Part shown: positions 15,253-28,395 of the stretch, piece by piece
How the letters are laid out: every line of letters begins with the position of its first letter
How positions within the stretch are numbered: position 1 is the first letter of the stretch
DNA from: Pseudomonadota bacterium
Lineage (GTDB): Bacteria; Desulfobacterota; Syntrophorhabdia; Syntrophorhabdales; Syntrophorhabdaceae
Length of the DNA stretch: 41,573 nucleotides
Direction of reading: 5' to 3'
NCBI GenBank assembly: GCA_026388315.1
Contig: JAPLKA010000116.1
Coordinates: forward strand, 1 to 41,573
Made by a program: the position numbers and the translations under genes
Notes under the pieces: generated by a model
Seen by the model: the letters and a program-made list of their open reading frames with translations, nothing else
What the model was told of the DNA's origin: nothing
Databases searched by the model: none

Positions 15253-15264
15253 CTTAAGGTCAAT

Positions 15265-15295
15265 TTTTCAACATTTTTTCAACATATGTGGAAAA
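15265..15295. other. DnaA-box-like cluster upstream of dnaA (putative oriC/autoregulatory sites)
   Basis: Two copies of TTTTCAACA (15265-15273 and 15276-15284) stand 11 bases apart, followed by TGTGGAAAA (15287-15295), the complement of TTTTCCACA, which is one mismatch from the consensus TTATCCACA. The cluster is 13 bases upstream of the dnaA ATG and downstream of its putative promoter. That position suits repression of dnaA by DnaA as well as origin function. Confidence 0.5.
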
Positions 15296-15324
15296 CTAAA
15301 ATGCTCTTGAAAGGTTAATATCCA

Positions 15325-15870: not shown

Positions 15871-17274
15871 TTACCACTGCTCCACGTTGAGGCCCGACAC
15901 CCCTTCATAGACGATTTTGCTTTTCAGGGATTCCGCCACAACCTCACGGAAGAGGGTTTTGTTTTTCATTTTGAGTGGTATTGATAATTTCAGGAAAAAT
16001 CTGATTCTGTCGCCTGTTGATATCCTCTTCGGAATGGTGGTGTTCAACTGTGTCAACACCCTTTTGAGGGACTCCGTGTCCGTTTCCGTGAAAACAATAT
16101 CCTCCACGTCCAGGAGGATAAACCCCCCATCCCTCAATACAAAAACATTGCAGGCCTTCACATCCCTGTGGATTATCCACTGCCCTATCGCATGAACAAA
16201 AAAGGTAGAAAATGTGTCAATAAACATTCTCCTCTCATGCACACCGAATCTGTCATATTCCCTGTCCAGATAACGGTCAAGTTCTTCGCCCCTGCCTGCC
16301 AGATCTTCCATGGCGATAAACCCCTTTTCAATGAGAGATGGCCTTTTGACAAAAAACGCCTGGGGTACCACCCGGAGGTTTAAATACGTTAAGGCAATGT
16401 GATTTTTCCAGGCCCTGTTCAAGCGCCTCTTGTTCCGGTATGTTTTTCTTACGTGGTCACTGTACCGCTCTATCTTTACTTTTTTGTCCTTTTTTATCAC
16501 AGAGCACAGCGTGCCCTTGCCGTGCCCCTCGAATCCGGCAATATAGACACAATTACGGTCTTTTGCCATTGTTGATGTGTCATCAAATGCCCGCTCCATC
16601 TTTTTCAGAATCCACCGGTGTCTCAGGCGCTTCAGCTCTGCCTCAAGGGGTTTCCTTATGCCCTTTTCGCCATACCGCTGAAAAAAGGCACTCTTCTCTT
16701 CCTCGCTGAGGCTTTGATATACCATGGTAATGGCGTGTGCGAGGTTTGATATTTCGTCGCTGAGCGAAAAAGTGCTTTTGATTTTCATTTTGTGCAAATC
16801 GACGAGGTACAGCCTGTCCTTATGGACAATAATGTTATTCAGGTGCAGGTCGTTGTGCCTGATGCGGTGAAGCTTCAACACATTCAAGAAATCTGCAAGC
16901 TGAAGGAGAAGGGTGTTTTTTCCAACACTTGCCGTATATGCATTTACAAAGGTGTTACCATCAATCCATTCCTGAATTACGTATGATCCCGTATCTGAAA
17001 TTCCATACCCAAGAGGTTCGGGCGTGGGGATTGAAAGCAAAATCAACTTGCCGGCCAAATAGAATTCTTTTTTCCCCCTCGGCGAAATCCGGTTTCTCAA
17101 AAGCCCGTAAAAACCCTTTTCTTTGAAAAATTTTATGAAAATCTTTTTTCCTGCATGTTCAAAGGTAAAATGGCCCCTTTTTGTTGCCCCTTCGCACGAA
17201 ACTTCTTTCACAAAATCGACAGGCAACTCGTCTTTAAGAAACCACTTAATGTTGTGTGTCCTGACGATTTTCAT
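15871..17274 (-). CDS. Tandem kinase-like protein (two WaaP/KdkA-type lipopolysaccharide kinase folds)
   Basis: This 467-residue cytoplasmic protein carries two eukaryotic-like kinase domains of the lipopolysaccharide core heptose/Kdo kinase type. Domain 1 (about 25-230) has a candidate ATP lysine K48 (IFIKFF), the catalytic segment RHNDLHLNN (D142, N147) and metal-binding D159 (LVDLH). Domain 2 (about 235-440) has a basic candidate segment KKVKIER (about 264-270), IHRDVKACNVF (D371, N376) and D389 (LLDVED). Both sets of key residues look intact, so both halves may be active. The start overlaps the glycosyltransferase gene by 4 bases (ATGA). With the upstream carbamoyltransferase this suggests phosphorylation of a cell-surface glycan. 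Family placement is from motifs only; a protein kinase role is not excluded. Confidence 0.75.
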   Translation of the reverse strand: MKIVRTHNIKWFLKDELPVDFVKEVSCEGATKRGHFTFEHAGKKIFIKFFKEKGFYGLLRNRISPRGKKEFYLAGKLILLSIPTPEPLGYGISDTGSYVIQEWIDGNTFVNAYTASVGKNTLLLQLADFLNVLKLHRIRHNDLHLNNIIVHKDRLYLVDLHKMKIKSTFSLSDEISNLAHAITMVYQSLSEEEKSAFFQRYGEKGIRKPLEAELKRLRHRWILKKMERAFDDTSTMAKDRNCVYIAGFEGHGKGTLCSVIKKDKKVKIERYSDHVRKTYRNKRRLNRAWKNHIALTYLNLRVVPQAFFVKRPSLIEKGFIAMEDLAGRGEELDRYLDREYDRFGVHERRMFIDTFSTFFVHAIGQWIIHRDVKACNVFVLRDGGFILLDVEDIVFTETDTESLKRVLTQLNTTIPKRISTGDRIRFFLKLSIPLKMKNKTLFREVVAESLKSKIVYEGVSGLNVEQW

Positions 17275-18239
17275 AAGTTATTTATGATCTCTGAGACCTT
17301 CGGGCCCCAGGATTGCAGAGAAAATTTGTCTTCCACGAATCCCCGTGCTATTTTACCCATCCGTTTTCTTAAATCCACGTTCTCTGAAAGTTCGTTGATG
17401 GCATCTTTCCATCCATCCAAATCTTCTCTCAAAAACCCATTCACACCATTTTCTATCATTTCCCGTGCAACGCCAACAGGGTGTGTCAGCGATGGCATTC
17501 CTGCTGCCATGTACTGAATGAGCTTGAGTCCACACTTTCCCCTTGACCATATATCGTCCCTGACCGGCATGATTCCCATGTCAAAACCAAGCAAGGCCGC
17601 CTTCTCTTTCTCCTTCTGCCATTTTTCAAAAAACACCCCCCTTGCTTCAATCTCAGGGGGACGATCAGCTACCACCATAAAATTGATTTTTTCCGGATCG
17701 AAAACGGAAAGCAACAGTTCTTTCATGTCAAGCAGGTATCTCAACGTAGCGCCACTCCCTGTCCAACCTACAACAAACGGCGTTTTTTGATAATGGTTTT
17801 TTACGGGATATTCGTCGGTGTTCACGACGGTGGGAACACGGTATATGTTATTTTCTCTATGGCGGCCCGCCTCTTTGCAGAGAAATCCGTTTCCGCAGAA
17901 AACCGCATCGGCATTCCTTACAACCCTCGCAAACCTCGACCGCCTCGTTGAACTCTCACCTCTTGTTCCATACATGACAGCATCATCAAAATCATAGATA
18001 AGCCTTTTCGCATGCATCCTCAGCAAGGAAAACTTGAGGGGGTTAAGGAGAACCCTCTGCAGATAGACCACATCGGCAGATCTGGCACAACCCAGAATGT
18101 TTGTGAATTTTTCTTTTGTGGTAAGGAGTTCAACCTCAAAGCCGATTTTCTCAAGATAAGGAAAATACTGATGGATTCTATACCCTTCAGGGTTTTCCAG
18201 GGTAAATATATTGTGGGTAAAAAAGAGGATTTTTTTCAT
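17271..18239 (-). CDS. Glycosyltransferase, GT4-like
   Basis: A GT-B glycosyltransferase of 322 residues. The C-terminal nucleotide-sugar-binding half is recognisable: PFVVGWTGSGATLRYL, then CGLKLIQYMAAGMPSLTHPVGVAREMIENG-type sequence (described here in part), where the conserved glutamate precedes the NG of VNGFL. The N-terminal acceptor half contains YDFDDAVM. No signal peptide or membrane span is seen. It lies 12 bases after the carbamoyltransferase and overlaps the tandem kinase by 4 bases, so the three are one unit, probably building or decorating a surface polysaccharide or LPS. The sugar donor cannot be told. Confidence 0.85.
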   Translation of the reverse strand: MKKILFFTHNIFTLENPEGYRIHQYFPYLEKIGFEVELLTTKEKFTNILGCARSADVVYLQRVLLNPLKFSLLRMHAKRLIYDFDDAVMYGTRGESSTRRSRFARVVRNADAVFCGNGFLCKEAGRHRENNIYRVPTVVNTDEYPVKNHYQKTPFVVGWTGSGATLRYLLDMKELLLSVFDPEKINFMVVADRPPEIEARGVFFEKWQKEKEKAALLGFDMGIMPVRDDIWSRGKCGLKLIQYMAAGMPSLTHPVGVAREMIENGVNGFLREDLDGWKDAINELSENVDLRKRMGKIARGFVEDKFSLQSWGPKVSEIINNL

Positions 18240-18251
18240 CCGTCCACGGAT

Positions 18252-20042
18252 TCATCGGGCATTGCTTTTAAAGAAATTACTGAAATATCGTCTAAAGCCA
18301 CCCCTGAAATCAGTTGCCCTGAGTTTGTCCTCATCGACCATGGGTCCGCTCACAAGTTTCTTTGGCCCTGAAGCTTCGATAAGGTAGTCTTCGATAACCA
18401 GACAATCCATCTCGGTAGACATGAAGCACTTCAGCGCCTCGGCAGGCGTCTCTACAATGGGTTCCCCGGCAACGTTGAAGGATGTGTTGAGAATAACCGG
18501 AACACCGGTAATCTTGAAGAATTCGTGAATGAGGTCGTAATATCTCCCGTTATCTTCGCGGGTAACGGTCTGAACACGTGCGGTTCCATCTACATGGGTT
18601 ATGGCAGGAATAACCTTCTGCTTATCCTCTTTGACCCCGGCAATAAGGAGCATATAAGGGCTTTCGCAGGCCAGGTCAAAATACTCTGAAACATATTCAC
18701 GGAGCACTGAAGGGGCAAAGGGTCTGAAACCCTCTCTGTGCTTTACTTTCTCGTTGAGAATGTCTTTCATCTCCGGCTTCCCGGGATCACAGATGATGCT
18801 CCGGTGACCAAGCGCACGGGGACCGATCTCGCTCCCCCCTTCAAACCATCCAAGGATTTTCCCGTCCGCCAGGAGCTTTGCAGCCTTTCGGAAAAGATCC
18901 TTTTCTTTTGTAAAACGGATATTCGGTGTGTTTTTGAGGGTCTCTAAAACCTCTTCCTCGCTATACGATCTTCCCAAATATGCATTTTTAAACCGGTATT
19001 TTTTGGGGTCTTCGCCGTTTATGACATGAGCCCCGTATAAAGCACACCCCAAGGCTATCCCCGAGTCACATGCACCGGGCTGTATGAAAATATTCTCAAA
19101 GGGGGTGTTATCAAGAATTTTCTTATTTGCAACACTGTTAAGCCCCACACCGCCAGCATAGCAGAGGTTCTTCGAAGGGCTTATCCTGTAAAGATGATTG
19201 GCAACGGCAACGAGGGCCTCTTCGAGCGCATCCTGTACTTCGAAGGCTATTTGGGTATAAACATCGTCGGGAAGCCGTTCTTTCTTCCTTTGTGGTATAT
19301 CCGGATAGAAGAGCTTTTGAAAACAATCATTATACCGTACAAAGTTCTTTTCGCTCGGTATGAGCGCCGCCCCGTCTACGATCTCACAAAAGTTTTTGCG
19401 GAAGCTTCTCTCTCCGCTTTCACCGTACGGCGCAAGGCCCATGACCTTCCCTGAGCCGAAATCACCCATACCCAGAAATACGGAGGTACCCATGTAGAGA
19501 AGGCCGATTCCGTTTCTGTAACCCGGCATCGAGTAATCTTTTCTTATGGTAAACAGCTTCCCGTCCATTGCCCTGTAAAAGGACTGAACCTCTTCCATCT
19601 TTTTCTGTATCTTTGCATCGATAATTATCAGAATAAAAGGCGCCTTCTCTTCCGCTTCGTAATCAATGGCGTTGCTCCCCAATCCATCTACCACCATTAC
19701 CGTGGCCTCATCGAAGGGTGACGGGTAAAAAGCACCCGCCGCATGTGCAGTATGATGGGAAACGGTCTGGATGGGGCCGCCGTAGCTAAGCTCAGACCTT
19801 ATCATCTCCACCTCTTTGTTTCTCCCGTCTTTCCCAATACGGGTAACCCCTACAATCAGGTCAATATCCTCGATGTCCTTCAGGCCAGCGGCACCAAGAA
19901 GGTAACGGATCGATTTATGGGGGAACGCCCCGGAATGTTTTGCCCTGTCGAGCCTCTCCTCGCCTATGGCAAGAAGGCGCCCCCCGGAGATGAGGGCTGC
20001 TCCGGTATCATGGCCGAACGTATGAAGACCTAAAATGTTCAT
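18252..20042 (-). CDS. Carbamoyltransferase of the NodU/CmcH/TobZ family
   Basis: The enzyme makes carbamoyl adenylate from carbamoyl phosphate and ATP and transfers the carbamoyl group to a hydroxyl, often of a sugar. With the start at 20042 it has 596 residues, the usual size. The N-terminal Kae1-like domain begins LGLHTFGHDTGAAL and contains SHHTAHAAGAF (metal-binding histidines near 96, 97, 100) and VVDGLG. The C-terminal YrdC-like domain has FEGGSEIGPRALGHRSI. The frame is open further upstream to 20234, but the family starts at MNILGL and the best promoter lies between, so the short form is chosen. No Shine-Dalgarno sequence precedes it. It heads a unit with a glycosyltransferase and a tandem kinase. 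Confidence 0.93.
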   Translation of the reverse strand: MNILGLHTFGHDTGAALISGGRLLAIGEERLDRAKHSGAFPHKSIRYLLGAAGLKDIEDIDLIVGVTRIGKDGRNKEVEMIRSELSYGGPIQTVSHHTAHAAGAFYPSPFDEATVMVVDGLGSNAIDYEAEEKAPFILIIIDAKIQKKMEEVQSFYRAMDGKLFTIRKDYSMPGYRNGIGLLYMGTSVFLGMGDFGSGKVMGLAPYGESGERSFRKNFCEIVDGAALIPSEKNFVRYNDCFQKLFYPDIPQRKKERLPDDVYTQIAFEVQDALEEALVAVANHLYRISPSKNLCYAGGVGLNSVANKKILDNTPFENIFIQPGACDSGIALGCALYGAHVINGEDPKKYRFKNAYLGRSYSEEEVLETLKNTPNIRFTKEKDLFRKAAKLLADGKILGWFEGGSEIGPRALGHRSIICDPGKPEMKDILNEKVKHREGFRPFAPSVLREYVSEYFDLACESPYMLLIAGVKEDKQKVIPAITHVDGTARVQTVTREDNGRYYDLIHEFFKITGVPVILNTSFNVAGEPIVETPAEALKCFMSTEMDCLVIEDYLIEASGPKKLVSGPMVDEDKLRATDFRGGFRRYFSNFFKSNAR

Positions 20043-20055
20043 GCTGTTGAGTTGT

Positions 20056-20084
20056 AATATAGCAAAACCACCCCTGCCCGTCAA
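20056..20084 (-). promoter_or_regulatory. Promoter of the carbamoyltransferase operon; very short leader
   Basis: Minus strand TTGACG (20084-20079), 17-base spacer, TATATT (20061-20056). The expected start point near 20049 is only about 7 bases before the ATG at 20042, too little for a Shine-Dalgarno sequence, and none is present. The mRNA would be leaderless or nearly so. Confidence 0.6.
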
Positions 20085-20116: not shown

Positions 20117-20146
20117 TTGACACGCCTTTCCCTTCTCTTTTATAAT
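20117..20146 (+). promoter_or_regulatory. Promoter of the TRAP transporter operon
   Basis: TTGACA (20117-20122), 18-base spacer, TATAAT (20141-20146): both hexamers match consensus exactly. The start point would be near 20153, leaving a leader of about 53 bases before dctP. It is back to back with the leftward carbamoyltransferase promoter. Confidence 0.75.
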
Positions 20147-20205
20147 GAAGGGCGTTTTTTGCATAACCCATCATGCAAATATTATCAATCAGAGGAGGTT
20201 TTTGT

Positions 20206-21237
20206 ATGAACAGGAAACGGTTTGGACTGGGCATAGCCCTTTTATTGCTTTTTGTCTTTGCTGCAAGCGGTTTTTCGGCAAATTATAAACCTGAATACAA
20301 GATGAGCATCGTCGTGGGGCCAACGGGGCCGTGGGGGGAGTCTGCCGCACGATTCGCTGAGGCAGTTAAAAAGGCCACAGACGGAAGGATTAACATAAAA
20401 CCGTACTATAGCGGTCAACTCTTCGCAGGTAAGCAGACAAACGAATTCCTTCTCATGAAACAGGGGGTTATCGACTTTGCGGTGGGTTCAACGATCAACT
20501 GGTCCCCGACAGTAAAGGAATTGAACATTTTCTCCCTTCCCTTTTTCTTCCCCAGCTATAAAGCCCTGGATGCAGTAGAATACGGGGAAGTGGGCAAACA
20601 ATTATTTAGAACTATTGAAGAAAAGGGTGTTGTCGGTCTCGGATGGGCAGAGAACGGTTTTAGGGACCTTACAAACAGCAAAAGGGCTATAAAAACCCCT
20701 GCAGACCTCGAAGGCCTTAAGGTAAGGGTTGTGGGGTCACCCATATTTATTGATACATTTAAGGCCATGGGGGCAAACCCTATGTCCATGAACTGGGGCG
20801 AAGCCCTTTCAGCATTCCAGCAGGGCACCGTTGACGGGCAGGAAAACCCTGTTGTTTCTGTCATTATTCCCAATAAACTCTGGCAGGTACACAAGTATAT
20901 GACCGTGTGGAACTACGCAATCGACCCCATCATCCTCGGCGTGAGCAAACAGGTCTGGGACACCCTTGACCAGAAGGATAGAGATGCAATTAAAAAGGCT
21001 GCCGAAGAAGTGGTGAAATGGCAGAAAAAGGCTGCACGGGAAGGCTTGGAAGGCAGCACTGCAGCATTCGATAACCTGAAAAAGAACGGGATGGAGGTAA
21101 CTGTCCTTACCCCTGCACAGATAAAGGTCTTCAAGGACAAGACAAAATCCGTATATGACAAATGGTCTAAAGAGATCGGCATTGAGCTGGTAAGAGCCGC
21201 CGAAAAAGACATCCGGAAGGCAGCAGGAACAAAATAG
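20206..21237 (+). CDS. dctP: TRAP transporter substrate-binding protein, DctP family
   Basis: This periplasmic protein binds a carboxylate-type substrate and delivers it to the DctQM membrane complex, driven by a sodium or proton gradient. The ATG at 20206 is chosen because AGAGGAGG lies 7 bases upstream and a signal peptide begins there (MNRKRF, a hydrophobic core, cleavage after GFSA); the 343-residue length is typical. Family features include the conserved arginine region LKVRVVGSPIFIDTFKAMGANP and the later segment GTVDGQENPV, which shape the carboxylate site. The substrate is unknown; organic acids or aromatic acids would be usual. Confidence 0.93.
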   Translation: MNRKRFGLGIALLLLFVFAASGFSANYKPEYKMSIVVGPTGPWGESAARFAEAVKKATDGRINIKPYYSGQLFAGKQTNEFLLMKQGVIDFAVGSTINWSPTVKELNIFSLPFFFPSYKALDAVEYGEVGKQLFRTIEEKGVVGLGWAENGFRDLTNSKRAIKTPADLEGLKVRVVGSPIFIDTFKAMGANPMSMNWGEALSAFQQGTVDGQENPVVSVIIPNKLWQVHKYMTVWNYAIDPIILGVSKQVWDTLDQKDRDAIKKAAEEVVKWQKKAAREGLEGSTAAFDNLKKNGMEVTVLTPAQIKVFKDKTKSVYDKWSKEIGIELVRAAEKDIRKAAGTK

Positions 21238-21306
21238 CTCATACTAATTCGGATTCAAAGATAGAACGAGGCGAGGAGGAGACGACGACGAAGGCAACGA
21301 AGTTAT

Positions 21307-21819
21307 ATGAATGAAGGCGAATTGGTATCAGTGATTAAAAAGATATACGAAAACATGGAAGAAGCAGCGGGCGTTGTCCTGCTCGCAGTAATGGCGCTAT
21401 TTGCCTTTTTAAATGTTATCACCCGCTACTTCATCCAGTACTCCTTTGCCTTCACTGAAGAAATTGAGGTTGCCTGTCTTGTGTGGCTCACCATGCTCGG
21501 GGCGGCCGCAGGTTTTCGAAGAGGGGTGCACCTGGGTTTTGATCTCCTTAAGATGCGTTTCCCGAACCTGGGGCGGAATTTTCTCTCTCCCCTTGCATCG
21601 CTTTTAACAATCGTAACGATCTGTTTTATCGTCTGGTTCAGTGTTTTTCAAATAAAGGACGAAATCGCATTGAATATCACCACCGAGGCGCTGAACATAC
21701 CGCACTGGTGGTATACCCTTTCCATGCCTGTAGGCGGGGCTTTAGTCGTGCTCCGCGTGATAGAGGCAGCCTGGAAAAGATTTAAGCATAATCAAAGGTT
21801 CCGTGAAAATGGTGGATGA
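21307..21819 (+). CDS. dctQ: TRAP transporter small permease subunit, DctQ family
   Basis: The 170-residue protein shows four hydrophobic segments (about 20-40, 55-75, 95-115, 133-152), as expected for the small membrane subunit. The conserved RYF and EEIEVACLVWLTMLGAA region of the family is present. It starts 69 bases after dctP. The ribosome site is weak: a GA-rich AGGAGG at about 21273 is too far away, so the start could instead be the ATG at 21355. Confidence 0.9.
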   Translation: MNEGELVSVIKKIYENMEEAAGVVLLAVMALFAFLNVITRYFIQYSFAFTEEIEVACLVWLTMLGAAAGFRRGVHLGFDLLKMRFPNLGRNFLSPLASLLTIVTICFIVWFSVFQIKDEIALNITTEALNIPHWWYTLSMPVGGALVVLRVIEAAWKRFKHNQRFRENGG

Positions 21820-21965
21820 CACATGAAAGTAAGCACATTGCGTGAGATAACTCATGAAATAGCGAGTCTCACGAGCGAGAAGGGAAGGCCGGGGTACCCG
21901 CAAAGCGGGTCGTGGCTTTGCTGCCGGAGGGGGCGACGTGAGCCCCAGAAAAGAGCAAGCGTATA
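21820..21965. repeat. Insert-like spacer between dctQ and dctM with GC-rich hairpin
   Basis: dctQ and dctM usually overlap or adjoin, but here 146 bases separate them. The spacer carries a perfect hairpin ACCCGC-AAA-GCGGGT (21896-21910), preceded by GGGGT. A near-copy, GGGTACCCGC-TT-GCGGGT (23522-23539), lies beyond dctM in another repeat element. No gene is seen. I read it as an intergenic repeat dropped into the operon. Confidence 0.5.
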
Positions 21966-23249
21966 ATGGAACCGGTTATTGCATTCTTCGCAGTGTTTCT
22001 TGTCCTGCTCTTACTGGGGATCCCGGTGGCTACTTCTCTCGGCTTTACTGCTACCCTCCTCATATGGAAATACAACCTCGGCATAGAGGTGCTCGCCCCT
22101 AATTTTTATGCCTCTGTAGCCAAGTTTCAGCTTCTTGCCCTGCCTTTCTTCATTCTCGCAGGCCTTATCCTGGATCGCTGCGGAATTTCAAAGAGGCTTA
22201 TTCACTTTGTCAGTCTGCTGATAGGGCCTATCCCCGGCGGACTTGCCATTGTTACTATTATCGTGGGGGTCATATTCGCAGGGATCTCCGGGTCAGGCCC
22301 AGCGGATACGGCGGCGCTCGGGATGATTCTCTACCCTGCCATGATTGCCATGGGTTATGACAAGGGATACACGGCGGCGCTTATTGCAAGCTCAGGGTCA
22401 CTCGCTATTGTGATCCCCCCGAGCATAGCATTCATCATATATGGGGTCATTACGAGCACCTCGGTTCCTGCCCTCTTTGCCGCAGGAGTAATACCCGGCA
22501 TCATCACCGCGCTCCTTCTTATTATCCCTTCCTTTTTCATTGCAAAGAAATATGGGTGGAAGGGGGAAAAATGGGGAACACCAAAAGAGATATGGCAGGC
22601 CTTCAAAGAGGCCTTTTGGGGCCTTCTTGCCCCTGTTGTGATTCTGAGCGGTATTTATGGCGGCATTTTTACTGCCACAGAGGCAGCAGTTGTGGCGGTC
22701 TTTTACGGACTGTTCATCGGATTTTTCATCTACAAAACACTTACATTTACAATGCTTTACGGGATATTCAGGGATTCTGTCCTCTCTTCGGCAGTAGTCA
22801 TGTTTATCGTTGCCTTTGCGGGACTTTTTTCATGGACCGGCTCCACGCTGGGCGTCATGGATAAAACCTCGGCCTACCTGCTTTCGCTTTCATCGAACCC
22901 CTTTACCATCCTGGTTCTCATAAATGTCATGCTCTTCGTTGCGGGCATGCTCATGGACGCGATCTCTATTTATTATGTCTTCCTGCCCATTCTTATACCG
23001 ATAATGAAGTTCTTTAACTGGGATCCCATCTGGTTCGGCGTTGTCATGACGCTGAATCTCTCCATCGGCCAGATTACACCGCCTGTGGCAGTAAACCTTT
23101 ATGTTATCGCAAATATATCCAACCTTTCCCTTGAAAAGATATCCAGGTCGGTTATTCCTTTCGTTGCGATAATGCTTGTGGCGCTTCTTATCACGATGCT
23201 TTTCCCCTCTCTTTCGCTATACCTTCCGGGGTTGTTCGGGCTGAAGTAA
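21966..23249 (+). CDS. dctM: TRAP transporter large permease subunit, DctM family
   Basis: The 427-residue integral membrane protein forms the translocation path of the TRAP transporter. It is almost continuously hydrophobic, with about 12 predicted spans. Family sequences are clear: LLLGIPVATSLGFTA near the start, GGLAIVTIIVGVIFAGISGSGPADTAALG around 90-118 (given in part), IPPSIAFIIYGVIT, and near the end QITPPVAVNLYVIANI. The ribosome site is weak (AGAAAAGAG). It is separated from dctQ by a repeat-containing spacer. Confidence 0.94.
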   Translation: MEPVIAFFAVFLVLLLLGIPVATSLGFTATLLIWKYNLGIEVLAPNFYASVAKFQLLALPFFILAGLILDRCGISKRLIHFVSLLIGPIPGGLAIVTIIVGVIFAGISGSGPADTAALGMILYPAMIAMGYDKGYTAALIASSGSLAIVIPPSIAFIIYGVITSTSVPALFAAGVIPGIITALLLIIPSFFIAKKYGWKGEKWGTPKEIWQAFKEAFWGLLAPVVILSGIYGGIFTATEAAVVAVFYGLFIGFFIYKTLTFTMLYGIFRDSVLSSAVVMFIVAFAGLFSWTGSTLGVMDKTSAYLLSLSSNPFTILVLINVMLFVAGMLMDAISIYYVFLPILIPIMKFFNWDPIWFGVVMTLNLSIGQITPPVAVNLYVIANISNLSLEKISRSVIPFVAIMLVALLITMLFPSLSLYLPGLFGLK

Positions 23250-27450: not shown

Positions 27451-28395
27451 TTATAGCAAAGAGGTATCACGCCGTGCATTATTCTCAATCGCTTCCAGTA
27501 TCTTCGATGTGACGAACGGGACGTCGACCCTGTCCTTGCCGTACCGGAAGGTTATGCCGCTGCCCCGCGGGCGCCAGATGTCCGGGTCAAAATCGTTGAA
27601 TATGGTGATGGTATGGAGGCCGCACATGCCGGCAAGGTGAGCCATGCCGGAGTCATTGGAAACAAAGATGCCGCCTTTTTCAAAAAATGCTCTTACCTCA
27701 GTGAGTTCCTCAAAAAACACCGCCTCTTTCACATCCGTCTCCAATCCCATTGATTTGAGCATATGGACATCAATGCCCTTCGATTTCAATGAATGGTAAA
27801 GCCTTACAAAGTTTTCATAATGCCATTTTTCCTTTTTGAAGCCCTTTTCGGGGTAAAGGATTACGCGCCGGGACAGATTCGGGGTTATTTCTTTCTTCTT
27901 CGCTTCAATCCCATATTGACCCAACTGCATTAATTGGAAATCCTCAACATGGTATTTCGCTTCGCAATTCGCAATTCGCAATTCGCCTTTCTCTTTCCCC
28001 CCGACCCCTGGAACCCTTGAACCCTCGAACCCTGCCTTTATGACCCCTTGAACCCTCGAACCCTGCTCTTCCGGGTACATCTCTATGAAGATCATTGGTT
28101 CCCTCGACATCCTGCCCCACTTTTCTCTCAGTGCACCTTCCCTGTCTTTTCCGATAAATATAATCCTTTCCCAGGTGATGTCGGGGGTATATTGCGAAAA
28201 GAGTGGCAGCCATCTGGCCGATTCAATCCTTTCAATTCTTTTAAAATACCCCTCAAAAAGCCTTAAAAACCGTGTATATCCAAGGGCAACTATATTTTTA
28301 TTGAAATGGGCGGACAAAGACAGAAATGTCGATTCCGAGAGGCACATGTCGCCCAGTCCACCAAGATGGATGAGAAGAATTTCGTCATGATGCAT
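27451..28395 (-). CDS. Glycosyltransferase family 9 (ADP-heptose:LPS heptosyltransferase-like)
   Basis: GT9 enzymes add heptose to the LPS inner core at the cytoplasmic face of the membrane. The 314-residue protein starts with the family motif IHLGGLGDMCLS (9-20). The C-terminal half has the donor-binding segment FVSNDSGMAHLAGMCG and FNDFDPDIWRP. KKEKWHYENFVRLY also matches. Residues about 110-146 are foreign to the family: they are encoded by short tandem DNA repeats inserted in frame. Whether the enzyme still works is unclear. The upstream neighbourhood (28396-29205) is full of gene remnants. Confidence 0.82.
   Translation of the reverse strand: MHHDEILLIHLGGLGDMCLSESTFLSLSAHFNKNIVALGYTRFLRLFEGYFKRIERIESARWLPLFSQYTPDITWERIIFIGKDREGALREKWGRMSREPMIFIEMYPEEQGSRVQGVIKAGFEGSRVPGVGGKEKGELRIANCEAKYHVEDFQLMQLGQYGIEAKKKEITPNLSRRVILYPEKGFKKEKWHYENFVRLYHSLKSKGIDVHMLKSMGLETDVKEAVFFEELTEVRAFFEKGGIFVSNDSGMAHLAGMCGLHTITIFNDFDPDIWRPRGSGITFRYGKDRVDVPFVTSKILEAIENNARRDTSLL
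27958..28068. repeat. Short tandem repeats inserted in frame within the GT9 gene
   Basis: Three tandem AATTCGC heptamers (27966-27986) and two exact copies of a 21-bp word starting CCCTTGAACCCTCG (28014-28034 and 28045-28065) lie inside the GT9 coding frame. The 21-bp word is built on an 8-base unit, GAACCCTN. A diverged copy, TTGAATCCTCGACCCCCTG, stands at about 28912-28930 in non-coding DNA. The insert keeps the frame open. Confidence 0.75.

Follow-up and report, generated by a model that had tools for sequence, protein, structure and literature searches.

Which molecule is modified when a carbamoyltransferase, a glycosyltransferase and a kinase with two domains are encoded side by side? 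The question is raised by three minus-strand genes, called as open reading frames in the order carbamoyltransferase, GT4 glycosyltransferase and kinase, which span positions 15871-20042 of the window, i.e., of the whole analysed stretch of 41,573 nucleotides. The carbamoyltransferase and GT4 genes are separated by 12 nt, and the GT4 and kinase genes overlap in an ATGA junction. From this spacing, together with the conserved gene order described below, the trio is probably read as one transcript. A first-pass annotation had proposed that the three products add carbamoyl and phosphate groups to one surface glycan. The reading preferred here, with a probability of roughly 0.6, is that the trio is an operon for decoration of the lipopolysaccharide (LPS) inner core with a sugar, phosphates and carbamoyl, where the core is the presumed acceptor. 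The features are as follows.

15871..17274, minus strand: tandem Kdo/WaaP-type kinase, 467 aa
16585..17274, minus strand: kinase domain 1, residues 1-230, with K48, E70, D142, N147 and D159-L-H
15874..16584, minus strand: kinase domain 2, residues 231-467, with K277, W289, D371, N376 and D389
17271..18239, minus strand: GT4 glycosyltransferase, 322 aa, GT-B fold
18252..20042, minus strand: NodU/CmcH-type O-carbamoyltransferase, 596 aa from the ATG at 20042
20056..20084, minus strand: candidate promoter, TTGACG-17-TATATT plus TG, immediately before the ATG of the carbamoyltransferase gene; a pattern match only

Gene identities and genomic setting

All three products score above the curated Pfam cut-offs, and the identities given in the first-pass annotation (NodU/CmcH carbamoyltransferase, GT4 enzyme, 467-residue kinase) therefore stand. 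The carbamoyltransferase has both domains of its class, Carbam_trans_C (PF16861, E=3.5e-73) and Carbam_trans_N (PF02543, E=7e-39), and its matches in the PDB are decarbamoylnovobiocin carbamoyltransferase (9s2t, 3.7e-77), GdmN and TobZ. The conserved motifs HHTAH (96-100), ACDSG (324-328), GPRALGHRS (407-415) and NTSFN (519-523), like the two Pfam domains, are common to this enzyme and the NodU, TobZ, GdmN and novobiocin O-carbamoyltransferases. The latter act on Nod factors or antibiotics, while the window enzyme is proposed to act on the LPS core. Since it scores 155.7 bits against a cut-off of 1000 for the NCBIfam NodU equivalog NF041651, it belongs to the NodU superfamily but is not NodU itself. 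A longer in-frame start, the ATG at 20234, would run into the divergent gene. The same genome has two further NodU-type carbamoyltransferase genes, in L132 (8639-10501) and L133 (8781-10484); one of the two lies inside an apparent nuo (complex I) cluster and the other in a sugar-biosynthesis cluster.

The GT4 protein matches PF13692 (E=2.9e-11) and also PF00534 (Glycos_transf_1). Its AlphaFold model has a pLDDT of 90.4 and matches retaining GT4 enzymes over its full length, with Z values of 25-30 over about 300 residues and a best match at Z 29.7 (rmsd 2.5, 309 residues).

Upstream of the trio is a divergent TRAP transporter (20173-23249), and downstream of the kinase gene follow about 620 nt with DnaA-box-like sites and then dnaA, dnaN and gyrB. 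Three such sites lie at 15260-15300, just upstream of dnaA, one of them exact (TTTTCCACA, 15287-15295), and this cluster together with dnaA, dnaN and gyrB is a candidate replication origin adjoining the trio. A 12/12 match to a sigma-70 promoter (TTGACA-18-TATAAT) is found at 20117-20146, ahead of the TRAP transporter operon. Promoter and terminator matches in the region occur in numbers near chance and are given no weight here. Elsewhere in the window, a weak GT9 (heptosyltransferase-like) gene at 27451-28395 stands apart from any LPS cluster.

The two halves of the kinase

The family of the kinase is given by profile methods. PF06293 (Kdo/WaaP) matches at E=2.4e-8 with 34.1 bits against a curated cut-off of 21.3, its best stretch being residues 28-201, and this agrees with the LPS-type kinase that had been suggested. 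None of the NCBIfam matches, which are to Bud32 and Kdo kinase, comes near its cut-off, and phmmer with the kinase sequence alone gives chance-level matches only in the PDB. When the PDB is searched with a profile, the LPS heptose I kinase WaaP (6DFL) is the best of all chains, at E=2.3e-12. Because the two halves align with each other in hhalign at 99.2% probability (E=6.5e-20), with K48 paired to K277, D142 to D371, N147 to N376 and D159 to D389, the kinase is a genuine tandem.

The AlphaFold model, built from 32 sequences, has a pLDDT of 91.5 and displays the two kinase folds that had been anticipated. Domain 1 ranks WaaP (6dfl) first, at Z 16.3 (rmsd 3.9, 194 aligned residues), with PRPK/Bud32 tied to it within 1 Z; at such a difference fold comparison cannot separate sugar kinases from Bud32/PRPK. 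Domain 2 is nearest in fold to Bud32, at Z 14.9 (rmsd 3.2, 192 aligned). Domain 1 is thus predicted to be WaaP-like, the profile search being more specific than the fold ranking, and domain 2 is, by its model, Bud32/WaaP-like.

The catalytic residues quoted in the first-pass annotation, D142/N147/D159 and D371/N376/D389, are found where it placed them and, with K48, K277 and W289, are invariant in 43 of 43 full-length homologues. E70, the alpha-C Glu of domain 1, is invariant as well, so that this domain has the full set of Lys, Glu, HxD Asp and DFG-type Asp. The description of both domains as complete must, however, be restricted. Two homologous folds with catalytic residues are indeed present, but in domain 2, where K277, D371, N376 and D389 are all invariant, the position that aligns with E70 is occupied by W289, and a Trp is found there in every homologue examined.

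To see how domain 1 relates to its nearest relative, consider the DFG equivalent, which is D159-L-H in domain 1 and D188-L189-H190, likewise DLH, in WaaP (PMC6147952). The two have this motif, the fold, the Lys/Glu pair and the HxD in common. They differ in that WaaP is a single domain while the window kinase has two, and in that the canonical Asn, present in domain 1 as N147, is replaced by a His in WaaP. The alpha-C Glu is shared by WaaP and domain 1 and is absent from domain 2.

From the invariant Trp one may suspect, tentatively, that domain 1 alone is catalytic, domain 2 serving as a pseudokinase-like regulator or as a module that binds the acceptor, a variant that is compatible with action on the LPS core. 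The invariance of the Lys, HxD Asp, Asn and DFG-type Asp of domain 2 argues against this. So does its dN/dS, which in comparison with an 84%-identical orthologue is 0.22 and thereby as low as the 0.25 of domain 1; from these values follows that both halves are maintained by purifying selection.

Recurrence of the gene set and its link to LPS

Of 43 other genomes sampled from the order, 41 encode the kinase, mostly in single copy, with some copies truncated at contig ends. In most of them a tblastn map places a GT4 gene, of either of two related types, next to the kinase gene or within about 1 kb of it, and overlap or near-contact of the two is frequent across the order. The full order carbamoyltransferase-GT-kinase is found, apart from the window, in nine relatives (L031, L033, L036, L041, L042, L044, L045, L046 and L076), and in two genomes (G014, G033) the contig breaks at the expected junction of the trio. 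The homologues thus keep both kinase domains and the trio recurs in nine relatives, and the first-pass reading, for which single intact domains and genes that do not co-occur would have been damaging, is in this respect upheld. In the sister genus g5 an orthologous carbamoyltransferase lies 28-50 kb from the kinase or on another contig, and it is therefore not obligately coupled to the kinase; in most remaining genomes of the order no orthologue at 70% identity or more was found. The GT-kinase pair is accordingly the more widespread core, to which the carbamoyltransferase is joined in some genera.

Across the phylum, 148 sampled genomes include 42 with a match to the kinase profile at 1e-15, some of them to one half only, and 47 with a PF16861 gene. 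Two members of an unrelated family, f11 (G051 and G120), carry a tandem kinase of 481-483 aa after ftsZ and directly before a carbamoyltransferase gene, with a 4-nt overlap. As this enzyme shares no more than about 31% identity with the carbamoyltransferase of the window, the pairing of kinase and carbamoyltransferase arose or persisted separately. A scan of contigs for relatives of the kinase returned only Deltaproteobacteria-type and Planctomycetota records. In three of the deltaproteobacterial contigs (L105, L108, L111) two distinct tandem-kinase paralogues, of 481-522 and 566-642 aa, lie close together, and the Planctomycetota (Brocadiaceae-type) contigs L121-L123 carry relatives of 557-584 aa. 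A plasmid search gave no match with the window kinase and a single partial Phocaeicola match with the f11 kinase.

The genus g5 also ties the GT-kinase pair to LPS, since in four of its genomes (L055, L057, L058, L060) the pair is contiguous with bamA-skp-lpxD-lpxA-lpxB (skp being skp/ompH). A fifth (L064) has the same order as far as lpxA, where the contig ends. Kinase and bamA nearly touch in most of these genomes, and the identities of the bam-lpx genes were confirmed by Pfam in L057. The window comes from an uncultured Syntrophorhabdus-like bacterium, whose genome (3.8 Mb, 131 contigs) has a cluster with KdtA (Kdo transfer), lpxB and an ABC transporter of msbA-like type, a split hldE (ADP-heptose synthesis) next to a GT9 heptosyltransferase, and more GT9 genes besides, so that it can plausibly make a Kdo-heptose core. 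Taken with the WaaP-like domain 1, these two observations narrow the proposed surface glycan to LPS. The host also has a separate single-domain Kdo/WaaP kinase (L129, 3368-4156), whose gene converges with one for an LpxL-type acyltransferase and which is the likelier candidate for the host's Kdo kinase. Against the LPS core counts that the trio of the window sits between dnaA and the TRAP transporter, outside any LPS cluster. In the literature searched, no description of a Syntrophorhabdales LPS core was found.

The phosphate and carbamoyl could instead be placed on another surface glycan, such as O-antigen, capsule or exopolysaccharide. In several relatives the kinase gene is found with GT4 and GT2 genes and with genes for methyltransferases and DegT aminotransferases, a set typically seen in O-antigen or polysaccharide clusters, and the range of NodU-type enzymes, which includes Nod factors and antibiotics, fits such an acceptor too. 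But domain 1 is closest to WaaP, the g5 pair joins the bam-lpx operon, and a kinase that is near-universal and mostly single-copy in the order suits a core function better than a variable antigen, and we consider this alternative rather unlikely. A KEOPS-like system acting on tRNA or protein, to which the Bud32/PRPK fold matches of the kinase, the Kae1/TsaD fold of carbamoyltransferases and a weak PF00814 match in the present one might point, is highly improbable when the enzyme has a complete PF16861 C-terminal O-carbamoyltransferase domain and matches antibiotic-sugar carbamoyltransferases, when a GT4 gene lies within the operon and when the kinase adjoins lpx genes elsewhere.

A counterpart in Pseudomonas and the proposed function

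The first-pass annotation knew of no named system with this arrangement. There is one: the Pseudomonas core cluster has the order PA5004 wapH (GT), PA5005 wapO (carbamoyltransferase), PA5006 (kinase), wapQ, wapP and waaP (PMC8005017). As in the window, an adjacent GT, a NodU-type carbamoyltransferase and a long protein of the LPS-kinase class occur together; the Pseudomonas cluster has, in addition, three further kinases and heptosyltransferases that the trio lacks. The likeness is one of gene types and adjacency, with the Pseudomonas side taken from published description. Heptose II in Pseudomonas bears a 7-O-carbamoyl group and phosphate (PMC10579960), and WapO, with a role in heptose carbamoylation, is thought to O-carbamoylate this heptose (PMC10569645), which makes it a model for the step of the window enzyme. 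PA5006 heads an operon of its own, PA5006-PA5012, and has at least 493 aa, as a clone encoded residues 300-493 (PMC8707732). From this length, which is that of a tandem kinase, PA5006 may likewise have two domains. According to a statement cited in PMC8707732, complete LPS synthesis in Pseudomonas needs core phosphates.

If the acceptor is the LPS core, the trio would do its work at the cytoplasmic face, while the lipid has yet to be flipped by MsbA. In this scheme the GT4 enzyme would add a sugar to the core, and the tandem kinase would move phosphate from ATP to hydroxyls of core heptose or Kdo, domain 1 by the WaaP mechanism and domain 2 either by phosphorylating a second position or by supporting domain 1. 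The carbamoyltransferase would activate carbamoyl phosphate with ATP and O-carbamoylate a neighbouring sugar. The gene identities, the folds, the conserved catalytic residues and the conserved neighbourhood are observed; the core as acceptor, the modified positions, the order of the steps and catalysis by domain 2 are what we infer from them. As a more speculative extension, both halves of the polypeptide might be LPS sugar kinases with non-redundant roles, the second one using a non-canonical ATP site in which Trp replaces the alpha-C Glu. Such a protein would place two core phosphates per pass and, where its gene lies in the bamA-lpx operon, be co-expressed with outer-membrane assembly.

The earlier interpretation is therefore supported in part. 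The arrangement is less novel than had been claimed, as decoration of the LPS core with phosphate and carbamoyl is already known as a kind, and two features remain distinctive: the fusion of a second kinase whose active site is altered, and the linkage to bam-lpx genes. For the Syntrophorhabdales the prediction is a phosphorylated heptose core that in some genera is carbamoylated too. The results also suggest a function for the kinase family seen across the phylum, and they may help to assign a role to PA5006, the kinase encoded in the Pseudomonas core operon.
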